Of a stretch of 64,000 nt of DNA, positions 48,920-58,944 are shown in pieces. The notes beneath the pieces were generated by a model. That model was not told the DNA's origin. It was given only the letters and a program-made list of their open reading frames with translations, and ran no database searches. The stretch covers positions 1 to 64,000 of the forward strand of contig NZ_FOTD01000007.1 of the NCBI RefSeq assembly GCF_900114465.1. Direction: 5' to 3'. Positions within the stretch are counted from its first letter, which is position 1. The number at the start of each line of letters is the position of its first letter. This stretch comes from Trichococcus palustris (GTDB lineage Bacteria; Bacillota; Bacilli; Lactobacillales; Aerococcaceae). The translations under genes and the position numbers were made by a program.

Positions 48920-50557
48920 TCATTTTTCCGGCTTGTCCTTGCGGAGTGCATCGCTTACGGCATCCGCCGCCAACTTCCCGGTCAGGATCGCTATCGGTAG
49001 GCCGGATGGGCTGAAGGTCCACTGCCCTGCCTGGTAGACATCCGGAATCGGCGTCATTACGGCTTGCTTGATTTTTGGGAACCGACTCTCGCTTGGGAGC
49101 TCCCCTTGCGCAAAAGCCCATCCGGTGATGGCGCCTTCCGCATTTCCGCTCCGGCTCTCTATTGTCAGCGGCGTGGAGCAAAAGGCAGCACTGACTTTAC
49201 CGGCGAATCCCGGAAACAGCGTCGCATCCAGCAGCGCAATGAGCTGTTGGGTTCCGTAATCCTTGAATTCCCCGTACCAGCCCCTGTCCTTGACCCGCTT
49301 CACCAGTTGGTAGTCCATCAGAGTGCTGACGATGATGCCGGTCCGGCCTTCCGGGGCAAGCGAATTGTCCCTCAGCACCGGGCAGGATATTTCGTAGGTG
49401 TTCAAAACCAGGTACTCGGCCAGCCAGGTTTTCAACGCCGCCTTTTCATCCCCTATGCGTTCGGATAGGCGGTCCTGCCAATCCGGAAGCTTCCTGCTGG
49501 ACAGTCCGGACTTGTTCGGCGTATAGAAGGCATGCGCCCCGCAAATGCCTTCGAAAAAGCTTTTGTCCAGCTCGACCGTCATATAAACCGTGAAAATGGA
49601 ATCGCCACCGTGATTCGCCCGGATCCTCTCTTGCTGTTCTTCGATTCGGGTCCGCTGTCTGCGGTTGGAGCTGCCCCCCAGTTCAGCGGCAGCATAGAGT
49701 GCCTTCATATCGGCGCACCAGACCAGTTTTTTGTAGCCGAAGGAACGCTTATCGGCTGTCGTAACGGTCCTGTTGGAGATATCGATCTTGCCTATTTGCG
49801 TATCCAACAGGATGCTGCCGCCGTCTTGCCGTATCCGCCCCAACATCTTTTCGGCAAGGACGCCGGTTCCGCCGATGGGATAGTTGTAATCGAGATAGAG
49901 CCCGAAATAGCTCAGGGCGAAGAAGGCAGGCGTATCCTTGAAGAAATGTTGCGTGATCATGTCGATGAGTGCCTGATTGTCGGTGAAACGTTTTAGATGC
50001 TCGTTGATGGGCTTGTCCAATTTGCTCGCTTTGCGGATATTCAGCTGATATTTCAAAAGCCACGGCAGGAGCGTCTTCACCAAGTATTCTTTGTCGTTGG
50101 CATAGTCGACAAAAAGCGGATTGTCGATGCCATAGAGCACATCCATATAGCCCATGACCTTTTCTATTTCCGCGGTGATGGCGGCGATGTCCGCAACATT
50201 TTCCGGGAACAATTTCTCCAGCATCTTCCTATAGTCGGACAGGCTGTCCTTGGAAACGAGCCTGACCCATTCGCCGGCGATGCCGATGGACACCGGATTG
50301 CTGACCATCTCCAGCGCGATGCCCAATTCCTTCAGCATCGGCAAGAGGACGCCTGAGTTTTCGAACGCACGGATGCCGCCGTCGAAAACGAATCCCTCAT
50401 ATTCAAATGAGCTCACAAGGCCGCCCGCCTTTTCCCCTTTTTCGCACAACAGGACACGATAGCCCTGACTGCAGAGGTAGGCGGCACTCGTCAATCCCGC
50501 CATGCCGGCTCCGACCACAATCACATCATAAACAGTCTCCTTTTCCAATGGCCACAC
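48920..50557 (-). CDS. CrtI-type FAD-dependent oxidoreductase
   Basis: The 545-residue flavoprotein starts with DVIVVGAGMAGLTSAAYLCSQGYRV, the FAD-binding motif of phytoene desaturase/isomerase-like enzymes, followed by GGLVSSFEYEGFVFDGG near residue 45. PIGGTGVLAEKM near residue 226 and the C-terminal VYQAGQWTFSPSGLPIAILTGKLAAD are also family marks. GTG start at 50557 is one base after the stop of the next CrtI-like gene, so both are coupled. The substrate is unknown; no carotenoid synthase gene is near. Confidence 0.85.
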   Translation of the reverse strand: MWPLEKETVYDVIVVGAGMAGLTSAAYLCSQGYRVLLCEKGEKAGGLVSSFEYEGFVFDGGIRAFENSGVLLPMLKELGIALEMVSNPVSIGIAGEWVRLVSKDSLSDYRKMLEKLFPENVADIAAITAEIEKVMGYMDVLYGIDNPLFVDYANDKEYLVKTLLPWLLKYQLNIRKASKLDKPINEHLKRFTDNQALIDMITQHFFKDTPAFFALSYFGLYLDYNYPIGGTGVLAEKMLGRIRQDGGSILLDTQIGKIDISNRTVTTADKRSFGYKKLVWCADMKALYAAAELGGSSNRRQRTRIEEQQERIRANHGGDSIFTVYMTVELDKSFFEGICGAHAFYTPNKSGLSSRKLPDWQDRLSERIGDEKAALKTWLAEYLVLNTYEISCPVLRDNSLAPEGRTGIIVSTLMDYQLVKRVKDRGWYGEFKDYGTQQLIALLDATLFPGFAGKVSAAFCSTPLTIESRSGNAEGAITGWAFAQGELPSESRFPKIKQAVMTPIPDVYQAGQWTFSPSGLPIAILTGKLAADAVSDALRKDKPEK

Positions 50558-50558
50558 C

Positions 50559-52409
50559 TCATTCCTTCATAATATAATCGATGACTTGCTGGATTTCCAC
50601 CGGGGTGTCGTTCTGCCGATTCAAGATGCAATGCGCTTCGCAGGTGGCGAAGGCTATCTTTTCACCCTCTTCGCCGGACAGCAACCGTGTGGCGATTTTT
50701 TTCGCTCCGCTAAAATTGCCGACCGTCACCCGCCGCATGATGCCCGGGATATCCATCTCCTTGTTCATCGCGCAGCTGGGGTTCTCGCAGAACTGGCAGC
50801 GGGAGGCTTTCAGCATGACGGCCTTTTGGTCTTCGGGGCAGCCAGCGTAAAGACTCTCCGCACCAAAAGGCTTGGCCACCAGACGGACCTGATTGGCCCT
50901 GCCCTCCTGATGGACGAACGGCTCCAGCCCCAATTTCTTCAACACCGCATTGGCTGCGCTCAAGCCGGAAGTGGTCACGGTAGGCGTGCCCGTCCCCATC
51001 ACGGTCGATTCGCCGCAGCAATAGAGATTATCCCACTCGCTTTTCGTATGCAGGCGGTGGAACAGGTGCTGTCCCAGCATCTGCTTCGGCCCCGCGACCG
51101 CGCCGCCGTTCTTCATGAGGTAGCGCTCCAGCGTCCGCGGGGTGGCCACTTCGGCATAGCGCACGCCCTCCGCAAAACCAGGGAACCGTTTCTCCAGCAC
51201 TGCCGTCAGCCGCGCTTGTTCTTTCCGTTTTTGTTGGGCGTATCCGGCTGCATCATCGGCAATCCACGTTTCGAAGGTCGGACCGATGGCGATGACGACA
51301 TGGCTGTCTTCCGGGCACAGTGTGTGATCGTCGATGCTGAGGATATAGACGGTCACTTCGCTCTCATCCAACCGGTCCGGATTGCCGATCAGCATTTCGA
51401 TGGCCGCCGTGTCTTCGGGGATGACCCGCTTATCCACCAGTGTATACAACACCACGCTCGGATAGGTGGGCACCTGTTTGGCCGCCCACACGACCCTTTC
51501 CGGTTTCGAATGTTCCTTGGCGATCAATTTCCCGTAAAGATTCCAGACCGTGCCGGAATAGATAAGGTTGTCCGCCGCCAGCTCCTCGCCGCTCTGCAGC
51601 TCCACTCCGACAGGCTTATCCCCGTCGAAAAGGATCTTGACGACTTCCTTCCCGTACAGCATCTCACCGTCGTTCTCCTCGATCACCTTCTCCAGTTTCC
51701 CGGGCAGAAACAGCGTGGAACCGGCCGGATAATAACTGCCGCCGACGTGGTTCTCGACAAACATGATCGCGGCGAGGATAGCCGGCGATTCTTCAACGGT
51801 TGTGTAGCAATAGGTCGACGTCAATTTGTCGAAGAACTTGAAGATTTCCGGATCGGAAAAATACTTTTCCAGCAACGTTTTGGCGCTTTTGTTCAAATAC
51901 CCCAGGAAACGGGCATAGGAGATGGGATGGCGGAGCATGGCCTTCAGCCCTTGCTTGGGATCCGTCTCGTCGGGGGTGGTGTAGTTCGGCCTCTCAACAA
52001 TGACATGGCGGTGCAAGATGGCAAGGTCATGGTAAAAACGCTTGATGTTGTCCCGTTCCCCAGGAAAAACGAGCGCCAGTTCCTCCGCGAACTTGTCGAC
52101 ATCCGGCCAGAATTTGATGCGGTGCCCTTTGTAATTGACGCAATAGAGCAGATCATGCCGGATGACATCGATCGGCTCCTCCAGACAATTGAAGACGAAC
52201 CGGTGCGCATTGAAGCCCTTCTCACCGAAACCGAAAAGCATGGCCGCGCCCTGATCATAGGTGACGCCGTTCCTTTTGAAAATACCGCAGGAGCCGCCGG
52301 GGTTATGGCCTTTATCCACCACAGCCACCCGGACACCCCTTTTCGCCAACAGGCTTGCGGCGGTCAACCCGGACAGGCCCCCGCCGATCACAATCACATC
52401 ATAGTGCAT
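50559..52409 (-). CDS. CrtI-type flavoprotein with GltD-like Fe-S tail
   Basis: The 616-residue protein has a CrtI-like N-terminal flavin part (YDVIVIGGGLSGLTAASLLAKRG, GGSCGIFKRNGVTYDQGAAML) and family end CCGESTVMGTGTPTVTTSGLSAANAVL near residue 470. After it comes an extra domain of about 90 residues with SRCQFCENPSC (C538, C541, C546), MDIPGIMRRVTVGNFSGAKK and TCEAHC (C590, C594). This matches the Fe-S helper domain seen at the N-terminus of GltD-type subunits. Its placement at the C-terminus of a CrtI protein is unusual. The start follows GAGGAGG. Confidence 0.82.
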   Translation of the reverse strand: MHYDVIVIGGGLSGLTAASLLAKRGVRVAVVDKGHNPGGSCGIFKRNGVTYDQGAAMLFGFGEKGFNAHRFVFNCLEEPIDVIRHDLLYCVNYKGHRIKFWPDVDKFAEELALVFPGERDNIKRFYHDLAILHRHVIVERPNYTTPDETDPKQGLKAMLRHPISYARFLGYLNKSAKTLLEKYFSDPEIFKFFDKLTSTYCYTTVEESPAILAAIMFVENHVGGSYYPAGSTLFLPGKLEKVIEENDGEMLYGKEVVKILFDGDKPVGVELQSGEELAADNLIYSGTVWNLYGKLIAKEHSKPERVVWAAKQVPTYPSVVLYTLVDKRVIPEDTAAIEMLIGNPDRLDESEVTVYILSIDDHTLCPEDSHVVIAIGPTFETWIADDAAGYAQQKRKEQARLTAVLEKRFPGFAEGVRYAEVATPRTLERYLMKNGGAVAGPKQMLGQHLFHRLHTKSEWDNLYCCGESTVMGTGTPTVTTSGLSAANAVLKKLGLEPFVHQEGRANQVRLVAKPFGAESLYAGCPEDQKAVMLKASRCQFCENPSCAMNKEMDIPGIMRRVTVGNFSGAKKIATRLLSGEEGEKIAFATCEAHCILNRQNDTPVEIQQVIDYIMKE

Positions 52410-53542: not shown

Positions 53543-53848
53543 TCATCCCTTTTTTGGGTTCCCGTCATCGCCTTTCTTTTGACAGGAAAGGACCGGTTCG
53601 GCTTCCGTTTTCCAGTTCCACCATTTCAGTTTATCGGGTTCGGGATTTTTTTCCGTCGCATAATAGACGGCGCAGCGGAAAACGTACAGGACGCAAGGAT
53701 CCTGCCTGTGCCCGGTCATGCGGCACAACCTTTCATAGAGTTCCATGGGGTCTTTATCGCGCAGATCCTCGATCCGGTTGATGCCGAGAAACTGCAGATC
53801 TGCGGCCATCTTCGGACCCACCCCAGGTATTTTTTGCAGGTCGTTCAT
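53543..53848 (-). CDS. Helix-hairpin-helix protein, Cdd1 type
   Basis: The 101-residue protein starts LQKIPGVGPKMAADLQFLGI, a helix-hairpin-helix motif, and ends with CVLYVFRCAVYYATEKNPEPDKLKWWNWK as in the pathogenicity-locus Cdd1 family. HhH motifs bind DNA non-specifically. It is the last gene of a run after LepB and the four-helix protein. Confidence 0.85.
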   Translation of the reverse strand: MNDLQKIPGVGPKMAADLQFLGINRIEDLRDKDPMELYERLCRMTGHRQDPCVLYVFRCAVYYATEKNPEPDKLKWWNWKTEAEPVLSCQKKGDDGNPKKG

Positions 53849-53862
53849 TTACAGTCACCCCT

Positions 53863-54366
53863 TCACCAGACAAAAAATTTCAGTATCCCGAAACAGATGC
53901 CGCCACAGATAGCGGCACCGACTGCGGAGTAGGCGCATCCTTTCAAAAAACCGATGAAATGGAAGCGGTAGTCCTTGTATGCAGGATGCCCTTCGCTGCC
54001 GGGCAGAACCATGAATTTTGGCTGGATGGTGCAGAACAGCAGCCAGTCCATGATGAGCAGATCAAACACATTCCATACCATGCCCAAGATGAAGGCATGC
54101 AGGATCAAAACCCAAATGGCCACCTCGGCTGTGGAATAGGTGCGCAAGACACTGAAAAACAGGAAACCGATGATGACGACGATGGCCGGAACGATGAACA
54201 GCCTATACTTTTCCTTGTCCACCGGCGGCAAGTGGACCACTTTTTGAAGTTCTTCCGGATAATCGTGCACCAGTTGTTGCGGGAATTTCCAGGCCGCAAC
54301 AGCGATGACGATCACCCAAAGGACCGACCAGACCAGACCGTCGATGAGGGCTTGCGTAACGTTCAT
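53863..54366 (-). CDS. Hypothetical four-helix membrane protein
   Basis: The 167-residue protein has four hydrophobic segments (VWSVLWVIVIAVAAW, LFIVPAIVVIIGFLFF, WVLILHAFILGMVWNVF, and a C-terminal glycine-rich helix). No family recognised with certainty. ATG at 54366 is preferred because GGGAGG lies 8 bases upstream. It sits between lepB and the Cdd1 gene. Confidence 0.65.
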   Translation of the reverse strand: MNVTQALIDGLVWSVLWVIVIAVAAWKFPQQLVHDYPEELQKVVHLPPVDKEKYRLFIVPAIVVIIGFLFFSVLRTYSTAEVAIWVLILHAFILGMVWNVFDLLIMDWLLFCTIQPKFMVLPGSEGHPAYKDYRFHFIGFLKGCAYSAVGAAICGGICFGILKFFVW

Positions 54367-54393
54367 CCTCATTCCCTCCCTTAACAGGCATTC

Positions 54394-54891
54394 TCACAGC
54401 AAATGGAACGGAAAAATAGAAAAAAGCACCTTGCCGCGGATCTTTCCCTCATGGATGAACGGGTCGGCAAAAGAGCGGCTGTCATGCGAGGCTGCGCGGT
54501 TGTCCCCCAGAAACAGATAGTTGTTCGGCGGCACCTCGAAACGGCCGTCTGATCTGCTCGGATAGTCCACATACGGTTCATCCAGTTCTGTTTGGTTGAC
54601 AGACACGGCGCCGTCGTCATCGATTGAGACGACATCCTCCGGCAGTCCGATGACCCGTTTCACCAAAGTATCCTGGAGTTCGTCGGAATAGAAGACGAGG
54701 ATATCCCCTCTTCTGATGGTTTGGAAATCATGGATGCGCAGCGTGAAGAGCAAATCCTTCGGCTGCAGGGTCGGGACCATAGAATAGGAAGACACCCTCG
54801 TCAAAAAGAAAATGTGCTTCCTGATCAAGGAGGCCGTCCCGATGGCGATGCCGATGAAAAGAACGTATTGATAGATAAGAGTCTGTTCCAT
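54394..54891 (-). CDS. lepB: Signal peptidase I
   Basis: This 165-residue serine protease has one N-terminal membrane helix, nucleophile S37 in SSYSMVPTL, general base K78 in TLVKRVIGLPED and box E FLGDNRAASHDSRSF near residue 125. It cleaves signal peptides of exported proteins. It is short but complete. Its position right behind the exported DUF6448 gene is notable, though a terminator lies between. Confidence 0.93.
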   Translation of the reverse strand: MEQTLIYQYVLFIGIAIGTASLIRKHIFFLTRVSSYSMVPTLQPKDLLFTLRIHDFQTIRRGDILVFYSDELQDTLVKRVIGLPEDVVSIDDDGAVSVNQTELDEPYVDYPSRSDGRFEVPPNNYLFLGDNRAASHDSRSFADPFIHEGKIRGKVLFSIFPFHLL

Positions 54892-54911: not shown

Positions 54912-54960
54912 AAAAAATTTAAACGCATACCTTCCCCGCTGATGCGGAGAAGGTATGCGC
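54912..54960 (-). terminator. Terminator after the heliorhodopsin-DUF6448 unit
   Basis: CGCATACCTT and AAGGTATGCG form the stem with an additional inner C/G stem; on the minus strand AAATTTTTTG follows. It separates DUF6448 from lepB. Confidence 0.85.
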
Positions 54961-54986
54961 TCGAAAACCGATTGTGCATGCTCCGC

Positions 54987-55595
54987 TTAGTGGGGATGCG
55001 CCGTGTGCCCATCTTCATGATGATGGTGTTCATGGCCATGCTCCTGGCTTTCGCCTTCCGCCAGTTTAAAGAAGCTGACGTAGGCTTCGATGTACGCCCG
55101 TCCCGCTTCGACATCATCGACGGCAAAATCCTTCAGGGCCATGGCTTTGCTGAACTTCTCCTCCAATTCATGTATTTCTTCTTGTGTGACCAAGCCTTCC
55201 AGCGGCGATAGGTTCCCCGCTGCTATGGCTCTATCCGCCGCCAAAATCTTTTCATCGATGGGCGTTCCCGCTGGTTTCAGCCCTTCGTACGGAGCTCCTT
55301 CCCCCGCCCGGTGGATTCTGACCAGATTCTCAAGGAAATATTTATCCGCTAATTTCTGCGCTTCAGGGCTCAATCCCCTGACTTTCATGCTCAACGCGAA
55401 TATTTCTTTTAGCTCTTCTTCATGTTCCGGCAATATCCACTTCAGGGCATAGTTGATGTTGTTTGTTTCGAGTGCCTTCTTTCCGTCGGCGGCGGTGGGG
55501 CCATCCATGGTATCGCAATGGGCGCGTGCTTTTACCGGAATCAACAGGACCATGACAAAAGTGGCGATCATTCCCATCATCAGCAGCATTTCCAT
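54987..55595 (-). CDS. DUF6448 family exported protein with His-rich tail
   Basis: The 202-residue protein has a signal peptide of about 24 residues ending VKARA, then a mature protein starting HCDTMDGPTAADGKKALE. The domain is helical, with a TPIDEKILAADRAIAAGNLSPLEGL segment. The C-terminus is rich in histidine (HGHEHHHHEDGHTAHPH), suggesting metal binding outside the cell. It follows the heliorhodopsin gene by 50 bases and precedes a terminator, so the two form a bicistronic unit. Function unknown. Confidence 0.83.
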   Translation of the reverse strand: MEMLLMMGMIATFVMVLLIPVKARAHCDTMDGPTAADGKKALETNNINYALKWILPEHEEELKEIFALSMKVRGLSPEAQKLADKYFLENLVRIHRAGEGAPYEGLKPAGTPIDEKILAADRAIAAGNLSPLEGLVTQEEIHELEEKFSKAMALKDFAVDDVEAGRAYIEAYVSFFKLAEGESQEHGHEHHHHEDGHTAHPH

Positions 55596-55645
55596 TTTCT
55601 TCTCGCTCCTTTTTTATAATTCAGTCGTCATTAGATAGGATACGG

Positions 55646-56437
55646 TTACGGTTGCATCGCTCCGAAAAGGACCAACCAGGCCAAGATGGATTTGGCGACC
55701 AGACTTAAGATGATGTAAACTCTTTCGCCATAGATATAGTCTTGCCATTTTCCGATCTTCTTGTACTGCAGAACCATGTTGACAGGGAAAGTGTTGAATG
55801 CTACAAAATACGTCCCGACGATAGCCCAAACAAACCAAGGAACCTGATCAAAATTGCCGTTGCCGAACATGTACAACAGGATGGCTATCCAAGGTGCGAT
55901 TCCGGCAAGAGCCCCCCAGATGAACGGCCCCCAATTGATGTCCTCTTTCGCTTTCCCGGCATTCAATTGTTCCATGACCAAACCGAACAAGTTCATCGAC
56001 GCATTGACGATGAATATCAATACAAGTGATGCGATATCATAGATGCCGAACAAAGTGGCAATCAAAACGATCATGATGGAGGAACTAAGCGCGTATTCGA
56101 ACCAACGGAATTTGTTGATGCCTCGATCCAAATCGGCATTGTAGATGTCATTCAGCTTCTTCGGTATTGAAATGAGCGCATGCGCACAGGCGGATATGAA
56201 TAAAAATGAAGCCACCAAAACACCGAACGGCAACTCGAACAGTACTTTCGATGACAATTCGAGCGACCTTGTCTCTTGGTTGAAAGCCAAATAATTTTGA
56301 GTGATCTGCGGCGCAAATTCGCCGATTTTTTGGATGACGTTCGTGGCCAGGAAAAGCATCGCAATCCCCTGCAACAGATGTAGACCTCCCATAATCAGGT
56401 TGAATTTCCGTAGCTTGGCATATGTAATCTCTCTCAT
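55646..56437 (-). CDS. Heliorhodopsin
   Basis: The 263-residue protein has seven helices. The family signature of helix 3, FRWFEYALSSSIMIVLIA, gives counterion E114. Helix 7 has the retinal Schiff-base lysine K249 in GERVYIILSLVAKSILAW. Conserved H20 and H86 are present. Helix 4 has FIVNASMNLFG and helix 5 APWIAILLYM. Heliorhodopsins have inverted topology, are generally not pumps, and are believed to sense light. ATG at 56437 follows AAGGGAG; the longer frame to 56713 lacks signals. No retinal-forming dioxygenase gene is seen. Confidence 0.97.
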   Translation of the reverse strand: MREITYAKLRKFNLIMGGLHLLQGIAMLFLATNVIQKIGEFAPQITQNYLAFNQETRSLELSSKVLFELPFGVLVASFLFISACAHALISIPKKLNDIYNADLDRGINKFRWFEYALSSSIMIVLIATLFGIYDIASLVLIFIVNASMNLFGLVMEQLNAGKAKEDINWGPFIWGALAGIAPWIAILLYMFGNGNFDQVPWFVWAIVGTYFVAFNTFPVNMVLQYKKIGKWQDYIYGERVYIILSLVAKSILAWLVLFGAMQP

Positions 56438-56525: not shown

Positions 56526-56555
56526 ATTATATTCCAACGGGCTGGTGAAAGCCAA
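56526..56555 (-). promoter_or_regulatory. Heliorhodopsin promoter
   Basis: TTGGCT (56550-56555), 18 bases, TATAAT (56526-56531). The leader to the ATG is about 80 bases. Confidence 0.7.
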
Positions 56556-56648: not shown

Positions 56649-57074
56649 ATGCCGACGATTGAGAAAAAAATGATTGCAGAAAATAATTTTTGTGTGCTCG
56701 CCACCTGCAGCAATTATCTGCCCAACAGCTCCCTGATGCAGTACATATGCGACGAAAGTTGCACCCAGTTATTTATGCTGACCCTCAAAGGCAGCGTCAA
56801 ACAGCTGAACATCGCGGCCAATCCACATGTGAGCCTGCTGATCGACAATCGCGCCGCTCGGTCGAATGCTCCCATCCAAGCCTTGACCGTCTACGGCACG
56901 GCAGAATTTGTTCAAGATGCTAAAAAGATCAAGGAAATCGGGCAGCTGTTGGTCGAACAGAACGGAGATTTGGGAAAAATTGCGTCAGATAACCAACTCA
57001 TGGTCATCCGTGTCCGCGCCGAAAAGTTCCTTCTTCTGGATGGCGTGAACGACAAAAGCTACACGGAGCTATGA
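56649..57074 (+). CDS. Pyridoxamine 5'-phosphate oxidase-like flavoprotein
   Basis: The 141-residue protein has the split-barrel pattern: IEKKMIAENNFCVLATCSN at the start, LFMLTLKGSVKQLNIAANPHVSLLIDNR near residue 40 and ALTVYGTAEFV near residue 75. Such proteins bind FMN or F420-type flavins. ATG at 56649 follows GGTGATC. It diverges from the heliorhodopsin gene. Confidence 0.87.
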   Translation: MPTIEKKMIAENNFCVLATCSNYLPNSSLMQYICDESCTQLFMLTLKGSVKQLNIAANPHVSLLIDNRAARSNAPIQALTVYGTAEFVQDAKKIKEIGQLLVEQNGDLGKIASDNQLMVIRVRAEKFLLLDGVNDKSYTEL

Positions 57075-57419: not shown

Positions 57420-58061
57420 TCAGATTCCCTCTTGCTCCATTTTTTCATCCATCCATTTGTCATGCACAGATCCGAAAATACAAATCGCGACCAGAGCGCC
57501 GATGAGTGCCATCAACATATCCCAGAGGCTGTCCCAGACATCCCCCTGAAAGCCCATCACGATTTCTGGCGGAATGCCGAACAGGAGCGCCACCATAAAT
57601 TCCAGCAGCTCATAGAACGCGCTGTAGCCAAGGCACATCACAATCACGATGAAAGACAACATGCGTCCTTTTTTGACGTACCCGCCTCTCGACAAGAGTT
57701 CCTTCGTCAGGAAGGAGGGTGAAAAGCCTTGCGCAAAATGGCCCGCCCTATCATAATAATTCCGCCTCAAGCCCCATGTATCCTTCAAAAAATTGAAAAA
57801 AGGATTTTCTGAGTAAGTATAGTGCGCACCCACCAACAAGATGAGCATATGCAAAAAGACGATCACATAGACAAAGGAGGTGAAACTGAATTTCCGGTAT
57901 GTCCCTGCCAAGACTGAGACAATCAAAATGGCCGGAACTGCTTGTCCAAACCAGAATAGATGATTTACGGGGTTGATGGCGGATGCTGTCAGTGCAATCA
58001 GGAACAGCACGAATAGGCCGATGTGTATCGGGTTTATTCCTTTCCAGACTCTGGCGCTCAT
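57420..58061 (-). CDS. DUF2238 (YjdF-like) membrane protein
   Basis: The 213-residue protein has about six helices and the family marks HYTYSENPFFNFLKDTWGLRRNYYDRAGHFAQGF near residue 79 and SAFYELLEFMVALLFG near residue 148. ATG at 58061 follows GAGAGGGTGG. It may help a membrane process, but the role of the family is unknown. Confidence 0.87.
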   Translation of the reverse strand: MSARVWKGINPIHIGLFVLFLIALTASAINPVNHLFWFGQAVPAILIVSVLAGTYRKFSFTSFVYVIVFLHMLILLVGAHYTYSENPFFNFLKDTWGLRRNYYDRAGHFAQGFSPSFLTKELLSRGGYVKKGRMLSFIVIVMCLGYSAFYELLEFMVALLFGIPPEIVMGFQGDVWDSLWDMLMALIGALVAICIFGSVHDKWMDEKMEQEGI

Positions 58062-58160
58062 GAAAAAACCACCCTCTCTTACCAAACGGTTACCGCTCGG
58101 TCCGTTCAGGAAAGCCTGGATTTAAAGCCCTGCTCATACCTGAATGCTGCTTGGCCCTTT

Positions 58161-58856
58161 TCAATCGATTGCCGCATCATTGCTGAATCCCCTTTGTTCC
58201 CAATAGCCTCTGTAGTTCACATCATCGGATAATTCGATGCGCGTGATCCATTTGATCCATTTGTAGCCCAGTTTGTCTTCCGCGACCAATTGGAAGGGGA
58301 AGCCCCTTTCCGGAGGCAGGACGACGTCATTCATTTTATATGCGATCATCATATTCCTGTCCAAAATGGTCTGCAATGGCAAGGAGGTGCTGTAGCCATC
58401 CACCGCGTAGAAAATGACCGTTTTGGCGCCTTCCTTTACGCCCACCTCGGCAAAGATATCCTTCAGTAGAACGCCTTGCCAGAGAATGTCGACACTCCAC
58501 CCTTCGACGCAATTCAGCGTCACCAGCTTCTTGTACTGCTTGTTGTCCAGCACTTCCTCATAGGTCAATTCAGCCGGTTTCTCGACCAATCCGTCAATTT
58601 TTAGCCTGTACGAATCTATATCTATGTATTGTGGTCCTTTGATGGAGTTTTCCCTGAAATCGGCAATCGAAGACAGATCTTTGCCTTCATATTCGGTCAC
58701 TTCAACCTTTGTCAATTCTTCGATGCTGGATTTTCCCGCGTCGCCGGAAGTGGATGTACCGCAACCGGCTAACAATAAAAGGACAAAAAGAAGCATGCTC
58801 CAAAAAGTTATGCGCTTGACTGTAGCTACTTTCCTACTACTTGTTGTATGTTGCAT
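58161..58856 (-). CDS. Molybdopterin-dependent oxidoreductase lipoprotein
   Basis: The 231-residue protein begins with a lipoprotein signal ending LLLLAGCG and then a sulfite-oxidase-type molybdopterin domain: IDGLVEKPAELTYEEVL, the metal-ligand Cys in LVTLNCVEGWSVDILWQGVLL and YKWIKWITRIEL. It resembles MsrP/YedY-like catalytic subunits that repair oxidised methionine or reduce other substrates, but here is a lipid-anchored outside protein. No heme b partner gene (YedZ) is adjacent. ATG at 58856 follows AGGGA. Confidence 0.87.
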   Translation of the reverse strand: MQHTTSSRKVATVKRITFWSMLLFVLLLLAGCGTSTSGDAGKSSIEELTKVEVTEYEGKDLSSIADFRENSIKGPQYIDIDSYRLKIDGLVEKPAELTYEEVLDNKQYKKLVTLNCVEGWSVDILWQGVLLKDIFAEVGVKEGAKTVIFYAVDGYSTSLPLQTILDRNMMIAYKMNDVVLPPERGFPFQLVAEDKLGYKWIKWITRIELSDDVNYRGYWEQRGFSNDAAID

Positions 58857-58944
58857 CAGCAATCCCTACTTTCTGAAAACAAGGAAAAGATGGTTGCATG
58901 ATGACGTTCCCGACAGATTGGATCTGATTTTAGAAAAAACAGCT

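Follow-up and report, generated by a model that had tools for sequence, protein, structure and literature searches.

Nickel superoxide dismutase (NiSOD) is made as a preprotein that is cleaved, and thereby activated, by SodX (available part of PMC8346466), and in cyanobacteria the genes sodN and sodX are found together with one for a nickel transporter (PMC4284471, in part). In other exported proteins, a His placed at the N-terminus behind the signal peptide chelates metals (available text of PMC12537917). A third described system is the heliorhodopsin (HeR) locus of Trichococcus flocculiformis, which holds genes for photolyase, DUF2238, DUF4332, a hypothetical protein (HP) and, according to the legend, signal peptidase I (SP), and whose HeR binds class II photolyase, raising repair activity about threefold (PMC9769723, in part). 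All three bear on a stretch of 64,000 nucleotides from Trichococcus palustris (contig NZ_FOTD01000007.1, positions 1–64,000; hereafter the window), in which a HeR gene is followed by a gene of the DUF6448 family and then by an S26 signal peptidase gene. HeR and DUF6448 had been described, in a sequence-only reading, as a self-contained two-gene unit of functional partners. The comparison with related genomes presented here gives slightly better than even odds to another reading, namely that HeR stands beside an independent DUF6448-S26 cassette for an N-terminal His-Cys metalloprotein at the known photolyase-HeR locus. HeR and this cassette are most likely no more than neighbours at one locus.

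The window genes described here between 53543 and 58085 all lie on the minus strand, and families were called by Pfam and NCBIfam profile scores. The HeR gene (55646–56437; 263 aa) scores 332.2 bits against PF18761 (cut-off 26.7) and 303.1 bits against NF038020 (cut-off 100). It starts at the ATG at 56437, which is preceded by an AAGGGAG site, while the open frame extends past this codon to a TTG at 56713. The protein matches the solved heliorhodopsin 6is6 (E 7.6e-57), and the SLVAK of helix G, an instance of the SxxxK retinal-lysine motif, is aligned to identical letters. An inverted topology with the N-terminus inside is a family trait (available part of PMC8612252) and was taken over from the family for the window HeR. 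Fifty bases separate HeR from the DUF6448 precursor gene (54987–55595; 202 aa; PF20046 195.4 bits, cut-off 27), the sole DUF6448 match in its genome. A terminator-like hairpin of 19 pairs followed by a T run (54921–54962) lies between DUF6448 and the S26 gene. Its energy of -36.3 kcal/mol, calculated for a 75-base stretch, corresponds to z = -7.4, with 0 of 200 shuffles as good; terminator-like sites number five in the region compared with 4.7 +/- 2.3 in shuffles, so that the hairpin is exceptional through its energy and not through the site count. The proposed order of HeR, a 50-base gap, DUF6448 and a terminator is thus borne out. The promoter called strong upstream of HeR (56526–56555, TTGGCT-18-TATAAT) does match the consensus at 10 of 12 positions, but promoter-like sites are no commoner in the region than expected by chance (7 versus 4.7 +/- 2.1 in shuffles). 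Likewise, the bicistron is real, but its self-contained nature is doubtful in view of the S26 gene (54394–54891; 165 aa; PF10502 106.5 bits, TIGR02227 124.6 bits), which follows on the same strand after a gap of 95 bases that includes the hairpin, and is the recurrent neighbour of DUF6448 elsewhere.

The distribution of the two genes argues against a functional partnership. HeR is present in all 13 Trichococcus genomes, the window's own included, and DUF6448 in five. The HeR loci of the remaining eight show photolyase-DUF2238-HeR without DUF6448 in between; two of these genomes are incomplete (63% and 51%), with HeR loci like those of the other six. Wherever DUF6448 occurs in Trichococcus it lies at the HeR locus, and the five genomes show three gene orders: HeR-DUF6448-S26 in the window only, DUF6448-S26-HeR in three genomes and DUF6448-S26-Cdd1-HeR in one. 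Among 395 genomes of the order, DUF6448 was found in 15, HeR in 34 (33 over cut-off) and both in seven, namely five Trichococcus genomes, where they are linked, and two genomes of another family, where they share a contig at distances of about 0.96 and 1.64 Mb. HeR thus occurs in 7 of 15 genomes with DUF6448 compared with 27 of 380 others (Fisher p 7e-5), five of the seven being of one genus; without Trichococcus, the figures are 2 of 10 and 21 of 374 (p 0.12). When 33 HeR loci were compared with 1.5 kb on each side, DUF6448 adjoined HeR at five, all in Trichococcus, and at none of the 19 from other genera of the order (19 of 23 such genomes). Conversely, a profile scan with one genome per species yielded at least 537 DUF6448 relatives, the best 80 loci of which were analysed with flanks of up to 6 kb a side; HeR lies within the flanks of three, all Trichococcus, and of none of the other 77. 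In a sample of the phylum, DUF6448 was found in 3 of 398 genomes, the window's own among them. The ten frequent HeR neighbours in a published grouping include photolyase and DUF2238 and, in the available part of the source, not DUF6448 (PMC11109279). A lack of conservation of the neighbouring genes, which the sequence-only reading had itself named as a refutation, is thus largely borne out, and the partnership was rejected as the main reading on the counts in the genus, the order and the 80 DUF6448 loci. HeR does not need DUF6448, since it is kept without it in the genus and the two adjoin at none of the 19 loci from other genera. The pattern in Trichococcus is explained by loss, insertion and rearrangement at a single locus. 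Because all five DUF6448 genes of this genus sit at the HeR locus, local co-regulation of the two genes within Trichococcus is possible.

Judged by record titles, the 80 DUF6448 loci come from Bacillota, Actinomycetota, Pseudomonadota, Bacteroidota, Chloroflexi, Verrucomicrobia, archaea and further groups, a large share being from metagenome-assembled genomes (MAGs), and 47 records place the family on plasmids, of which nine regions were read. The open-licence literature, PMC12537917 included, yielded no paper naming “DUF6448” or “PF20046.” In the window protein, a signal peptide is predicted from the sequence for residues 1–25 (55521–55595), ending in ARA, and the predicted mature protein (54987–55520) starts with H1-C2-D3-T-M-D6-G7-P8 and carries a His-rich tail. 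At each of the 76 readable loci, the predicted mature protein starts with His-Cys directly after a signal-peptidase-type site; the residue at -1 is A in 72 of them and G, S or T in four. This count leaves out four loci without a readable mature N-terminus (L045, L051, L073, L079), the first three of which do show HC. One of the two scan patterns held HCD, a possible source of bias, and 16 of the 76 loci do not match the HCD pattern. Pattern-free profile searches found HC in 19 of 19 copies examined from 21 loci, several of these copies coming from one genome or genus and two being leaderless; the remaining two loci are halves of a split gene. Across 41 sequences, H1, C2, G7, P8, W28, H70, R71, E74, G75, G80, P83, G85, Y147 and E155 are invariant, and position 6 is a nearly invariant Asp. 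The His-rich tail is variable across the family and was rejected as its defining site. Export and metal binding, both put forward in the sequence-only reading, are thus supported as predictions, but the conserved candidate site shifts from the tail to the mature N-terminus: DUF6448 is probably an exported, metal-binding protein with His1-Cys2 as its candidate site. A lipobox carries its Cys at +1. The Cys of DUF6448 follows His at +2, and classification as a lipoprotein was therefore rejected. The model of the protein is helical (mean pLDDT, the predicted local distance difference test, 90.9), and a fold search with it returned no PDB match at E <= 0.001.

Some DUF6448 copies depart from the common form. 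Two copies of one genus (L021, L022) lack a leader, start with MMPP-HCDTMDGP and are presumably cytoplasmic. In one genome (G693), two halves of a DUF6448 gene (L124 and L127) lie ~0.9 Mb apart, and an S26 gene stands beside the second half. On plasmid pTO2 of Tetragenococcus osmophilus (L026), a gene with a heavy-metal-associated domain and a ric-type di-iron gene are repeated in alternation downstream of DUF6448.

An S26 gene follows DUF6448 in the same orientation at 31 of the 80 loci and precedes it at none, two apparent upstream matches being fragments of a downstream frame that overlaps the DUF6448 end. Its called start lies at most 70 bases from the DUF6448 stop in 28 of the 29 loci with a readable DUF6448 end, including 11 that overlap the stop; for 7 of the 31 peptidases the called start is no start codon and its position is approximate. 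By record titles, the pairing occurs in Bacillota genera, Actinomycetota, Pseudomonadota, Chloroflexi and one archaeon (L042, where S26 is in two frames). All 33 aligned S26 sequences, the window's included, carry the SM and KR(V/I/L) motifs. The window S26 clusters with those of the other Trichococcus genomes (support 0.864), though it is only 52–54% identical to them.

Leader and peptidase vary together. Non-hydrophobic DUF6448 leaders, ranging from 16 residues (Nostocoides, Nocardioides) to about 25, were found in seven loci, from Nostocoides, Nocardioides, Dietzia, Pollutimonas, Lysobacter, an acidimicrobial MAG and a proteobacterial MAG. In all seven, the called start of the partner S26 lies 8–17 residues before the catalytic Ser motif, and the protein has no membrane helix. 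An N-terminal membrane helix is present in the partner in 21 of the 22 loci with hydrophobic leaders, the exception being L074 (1.49, cut 1.5). The Fisher value of 5e-6 for this association is overstated, since the seven loci represent one clade. The comparison covers 29 of the 31 S26 loci (L073 and L079 were left out) and includes L067, whose leader window crosses a stop, and L097, whose peptidase looks frameshifted. These observations nevertheless suggest that DUF6448 and its peptidase changed compartment together.

The flanks of 18 of the 80 DUF6448 loci contain genes of nitric oxide (NO) detoxification (NorB in eight, Ric in six, NorV in four and Hcp in three), and the Pelobacter plasmid pPRO1 shows the order hcp-PAS-ric-flavorubredoxin-DUF6448-ferredoxin. 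Pfam neighbour scans covered 67 of 128 downstream proteins, to the exclusion of S26 partners and doubtful short open reading frames (ORFs), together with 105 of 125 upstream proteins; the three Trichococcus loci had been set aside beforehand. NicO matched 2 of the 105 upstream proteins; these matches were not assigned to loci and a nickel transporter link was not used. The neighbourhood with NO genes points to a role of DUF6448 in reactive nitrogen or oxygen stress.

According to the favoured reading, the locus would consist of two modules. The first is HeR, the light sensor of the Trichococcus photolyase-DUF2238-HeR locus, and the second is a two-gene cassette of DUF6448 and its S26 peptidase. 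DUF6448 would be translocated and cut after ARA, presumably by the neighbouring S26 protein; in the one clade with non-hydrophobic leaders, the cut would be made by a peptidase without a membrane helix. Cleavage would free the alpha-amine of His1, and this amine, the His1 imidazole and the Cys2 thiolate, perhaps with the invariant His70 and Glu74, could then serve as ligands of a transition metal (Ni, Cu or Fe) that may act against NO or other reactive species. A wider proposition is held more tentatively, with clearly less than even confidence: DUF6448-S26 might be an unrecognised and widespread metalloprotein system with an independently evolved, NiSOD-like maturation, in which cleavage by a dedicated enzyme uncovers the His-Cys metal site at the N-terminus of a helical protein whose fold has no solved relative, and which, in exported and cytoplasmic versions, would serve many bacteria and some archaea against NO or superoxide.

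Several observations weigh against this cassette. An S26 neighbour was not found at 49 of the 80 loci (6 of the 80 have less than 600 bases downstream), and on plasmids it stands beside DUF6448 in only two of the nine regions read, as lepB in two of four Bacillota regions and in none of five others. In the window itself, the strong hairpin parts DUF6448 from the S26 gene. The S26 partners score best as general signal peptidase I and not as SodX: the window protein reaches 30.7 bits and ten partners 29–38 bits on the SodX model TIGR02754 (cut-off 63.25), and SodX membership was rejected by score. The loci with non-hydrophobic leaders form one clade (support 0.988; their peptidases 0.907), so that leader and peptidase may have changed together only once, and the thresholds for leader and peptidase were set after the data had been seen, the Dietzia leader (L083) being borderline (2.01, cut 2.1). 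The two leaderless copies would need another route to expose their His. As for the NO genes, NorB joined the count only after the neighbour scan had revealed it, and three of its eight loci belong to close Bacteroidota relatives. On the supporting side, 17 genomes were searched, the eight among them, and the 11 with NorB hold one to three copies, which by arithmetic alone should place NorB within 12 kb by chance at less than about 1% of loci. Finally, S26 pairing and NO genes coincide in only 2 of the 18 NO loci, and because of this small overlap the two kinds of neighbour may mark different branches of the DUF6448 family.

The same neighbours can be read differently. DUF6448 could use its His-Cys not as an enzyme but as an NO or redox sensor or scavenger with a thiol or iron-nitrosyl site. 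The presence of qNor, hemerythrin/Ric, flavodiiron protein and Hcp among the neighbours fits such a function, as do Crp/Fnr-type regulators in 12 of 80 loci and TetR regulators directly upstream in four (L084, L095, L103, L109). However, none of the NO genes sought occurs in the flanks of 62 of the 80 loci, S26 pairing and NO neighbours coincide in only two loci, and DUF6448 was the only family reported in a Pfam scan of the window protein, with no output domain seen. This explanation is therefore considered unlikely, if the best placed of the alternatives. A structural role of His-Cys appears less probable still; the S26 protein would then be a co-carried general signal peptidase and DUF6448 an exported helical protein without metal. 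Such a role agrees with the ordinary signal peptidase I scores of the partners and with a fold search that yields no function, but it leaves the strict placement of HC behind the cleavage site, the S26 pairing across several phyla and an archaeon, and the joint change of leader and peptidase unaccounted for. That HeR and DUF6448 together form a light-sensitive system acting on extracellular metal or redox state is very improbable: the bicistron with its short gap, the shared locus in three arrangements, the raised co-occurrence in the order, and a survey tying HeR neighbourhoods to redox proteins and to possible zinc binding by HeR (available part of PMC8612252) are outweighed by the eight Trichococcus genomes that keep HeR alone, the absence of adjacency in other genera, the co-occurrence that fades without Trichococcus, and the scarcity of HeR at DUF6448 loci.

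The HeR locus itself is variable in Trichococcus. In T. collinsii (NZ_FNQH01000003.1; L033) the order is photolyase-DUF2238-DUF6448-S26-HeR, and the photolyase frame is a 71% match to the window genome's own Pfam photolyase. The latter is the only photolyase match of that genome and lies on another contig (G000:C14) than the window (C26); no photolyase was found in the window's HeR operon. The DUF2238 membrane protein gene (57420–58085; PF09997 150.8 bits) is a HeR neighbour across the genus, all 13 genomes carrying a homologue there (11 of the 12 others in the flank comparison and the twelfth, G001, via L034). Beyond the S26 gene lie a gene for a 169-aa membrane protein (53863–54372) without a Pfam family at cut-off, which has 63–65% homologues at the HeR locus of two congeners (L004, L012), and a gene for a Cdd1-family helix-hairpin-helix protein (53543–53848; PF11731 113.6 bits), whose homologues occur at the HeR locus in 12 of 12 other Trichococcus genomes. 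We infer that the published HP corresponds to DUF6448 and the published DUF4332 to the Cdd1 gene.

The window HeR clusters (support 0.978) with those of G478 and G691, genomes that belong to two other families of the order, and is not grouped with the other 12 Trichococcus copies. Because it groups outside its own genus, transfer of HeR into or out of the window's lineage is suggested. G478 and G501 belong to genus g304 of family f142, and the Tetragenococcus halophilus and T. osmophilus copies to a separate genus, g326. Carriage of HeR on mobile DNA was found on one viral contig and two plasmids. A 5.8 kb IMG/VR contig filed as viral (L020) encodes a HeR 73% identical to the window's, with no DUF6448 match on the contig. 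One congener (G007) holds a second, distant HeR (L014), 35% identical to the window HeR. On retinal synthesis, a search of the window's genome with the Blh-type BCD profile (PF15461) gave no match, a result without weight since the controls gave none either. Elsewhere in the window, two adjoining carotenoid-desaturase-like flavoproteins are encoded at 48920–52409, the second of which carries a Fer4_20 iron-sulphur domain at its C-terminus, and a protein with a molybdopterin oxidoreductase domain and a lipobox-like stretch, LLLAGCG, at 58161–58862.

If the cassette is real, a large unnamed family would gain a testable chemistry, namely a metal site that arises when the protein is cut by a protease whose gene adjoins its own, and HP and SP of the published Trichococcus HeR locus would represent a separate DUF6448-S26 cassette. 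The locus also warns against reading HeR partners from the gene order of one genome.

Among known systems, the second module invites three comparisons. Dedicated pairs of signal peptidase and substrate are known from the SipW-TasA type. There, too, the S26 peptidase gene adjoins the gene of its substrate, but the substrate family is another one and the window S26 reaches only 11.5 bits on the SipW model (cut-off 190). In the signal-strapping binders with an N-terminal His (DUF4198, DUF6702 and anglerases; available text of PMC12537917), the signal peptidase cut likewise exposes a chelating His; they are of different families, and DUF6448 has an invariant Cys2 in addition, as well as a peptidase paired with it. 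For the first module, the counterpart is the photolyase-DUF2238-HeR operon of the same genus (PMC9769723, in part), which in T. collinsii includes DUF6448-S26, in the gene order given above; the window differs in that its photolyase lies on another contig and HeR stands before DUF6448. By analogy, the closest counterpart of DUF6448-S26 is NiSOD with SodX. The three actinobacterial NiSODs inspected (L112–L114) consist of a leader followed by HCDLPCG, and an S26 gene stands beside each, with TIGR02754 as its best model at 41–49 bits, also under the cut-off of 63.25. Cys6, the second Ni-binding Cys of NiSOD, is present in all three and absent from DUF6448, and most DUF6448 copies seen differ further in their hydrophobic, signal-peptide-like leader. 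Membership of the NiSOD family was rejected: PF09055 did not match the window DUF6448, NiSOD was absent from the 50 of 72 fold matches listed for the model, and profile-profile alignment by hhalign gave a probability of 0.4 in a weak test with only three close NiSOD rows. A NiSOD search of the window's genome gave no match, which carries no weight since the controls gave none either. DUF6448 and NiSOD nonetheless share H1, C2, D3 and G7, a leader ending in a small residue and an S26-type protease alongside, a likeness in keeping with a His-Cys metal site that would have come to be uncovered in the same manner in two separate families.

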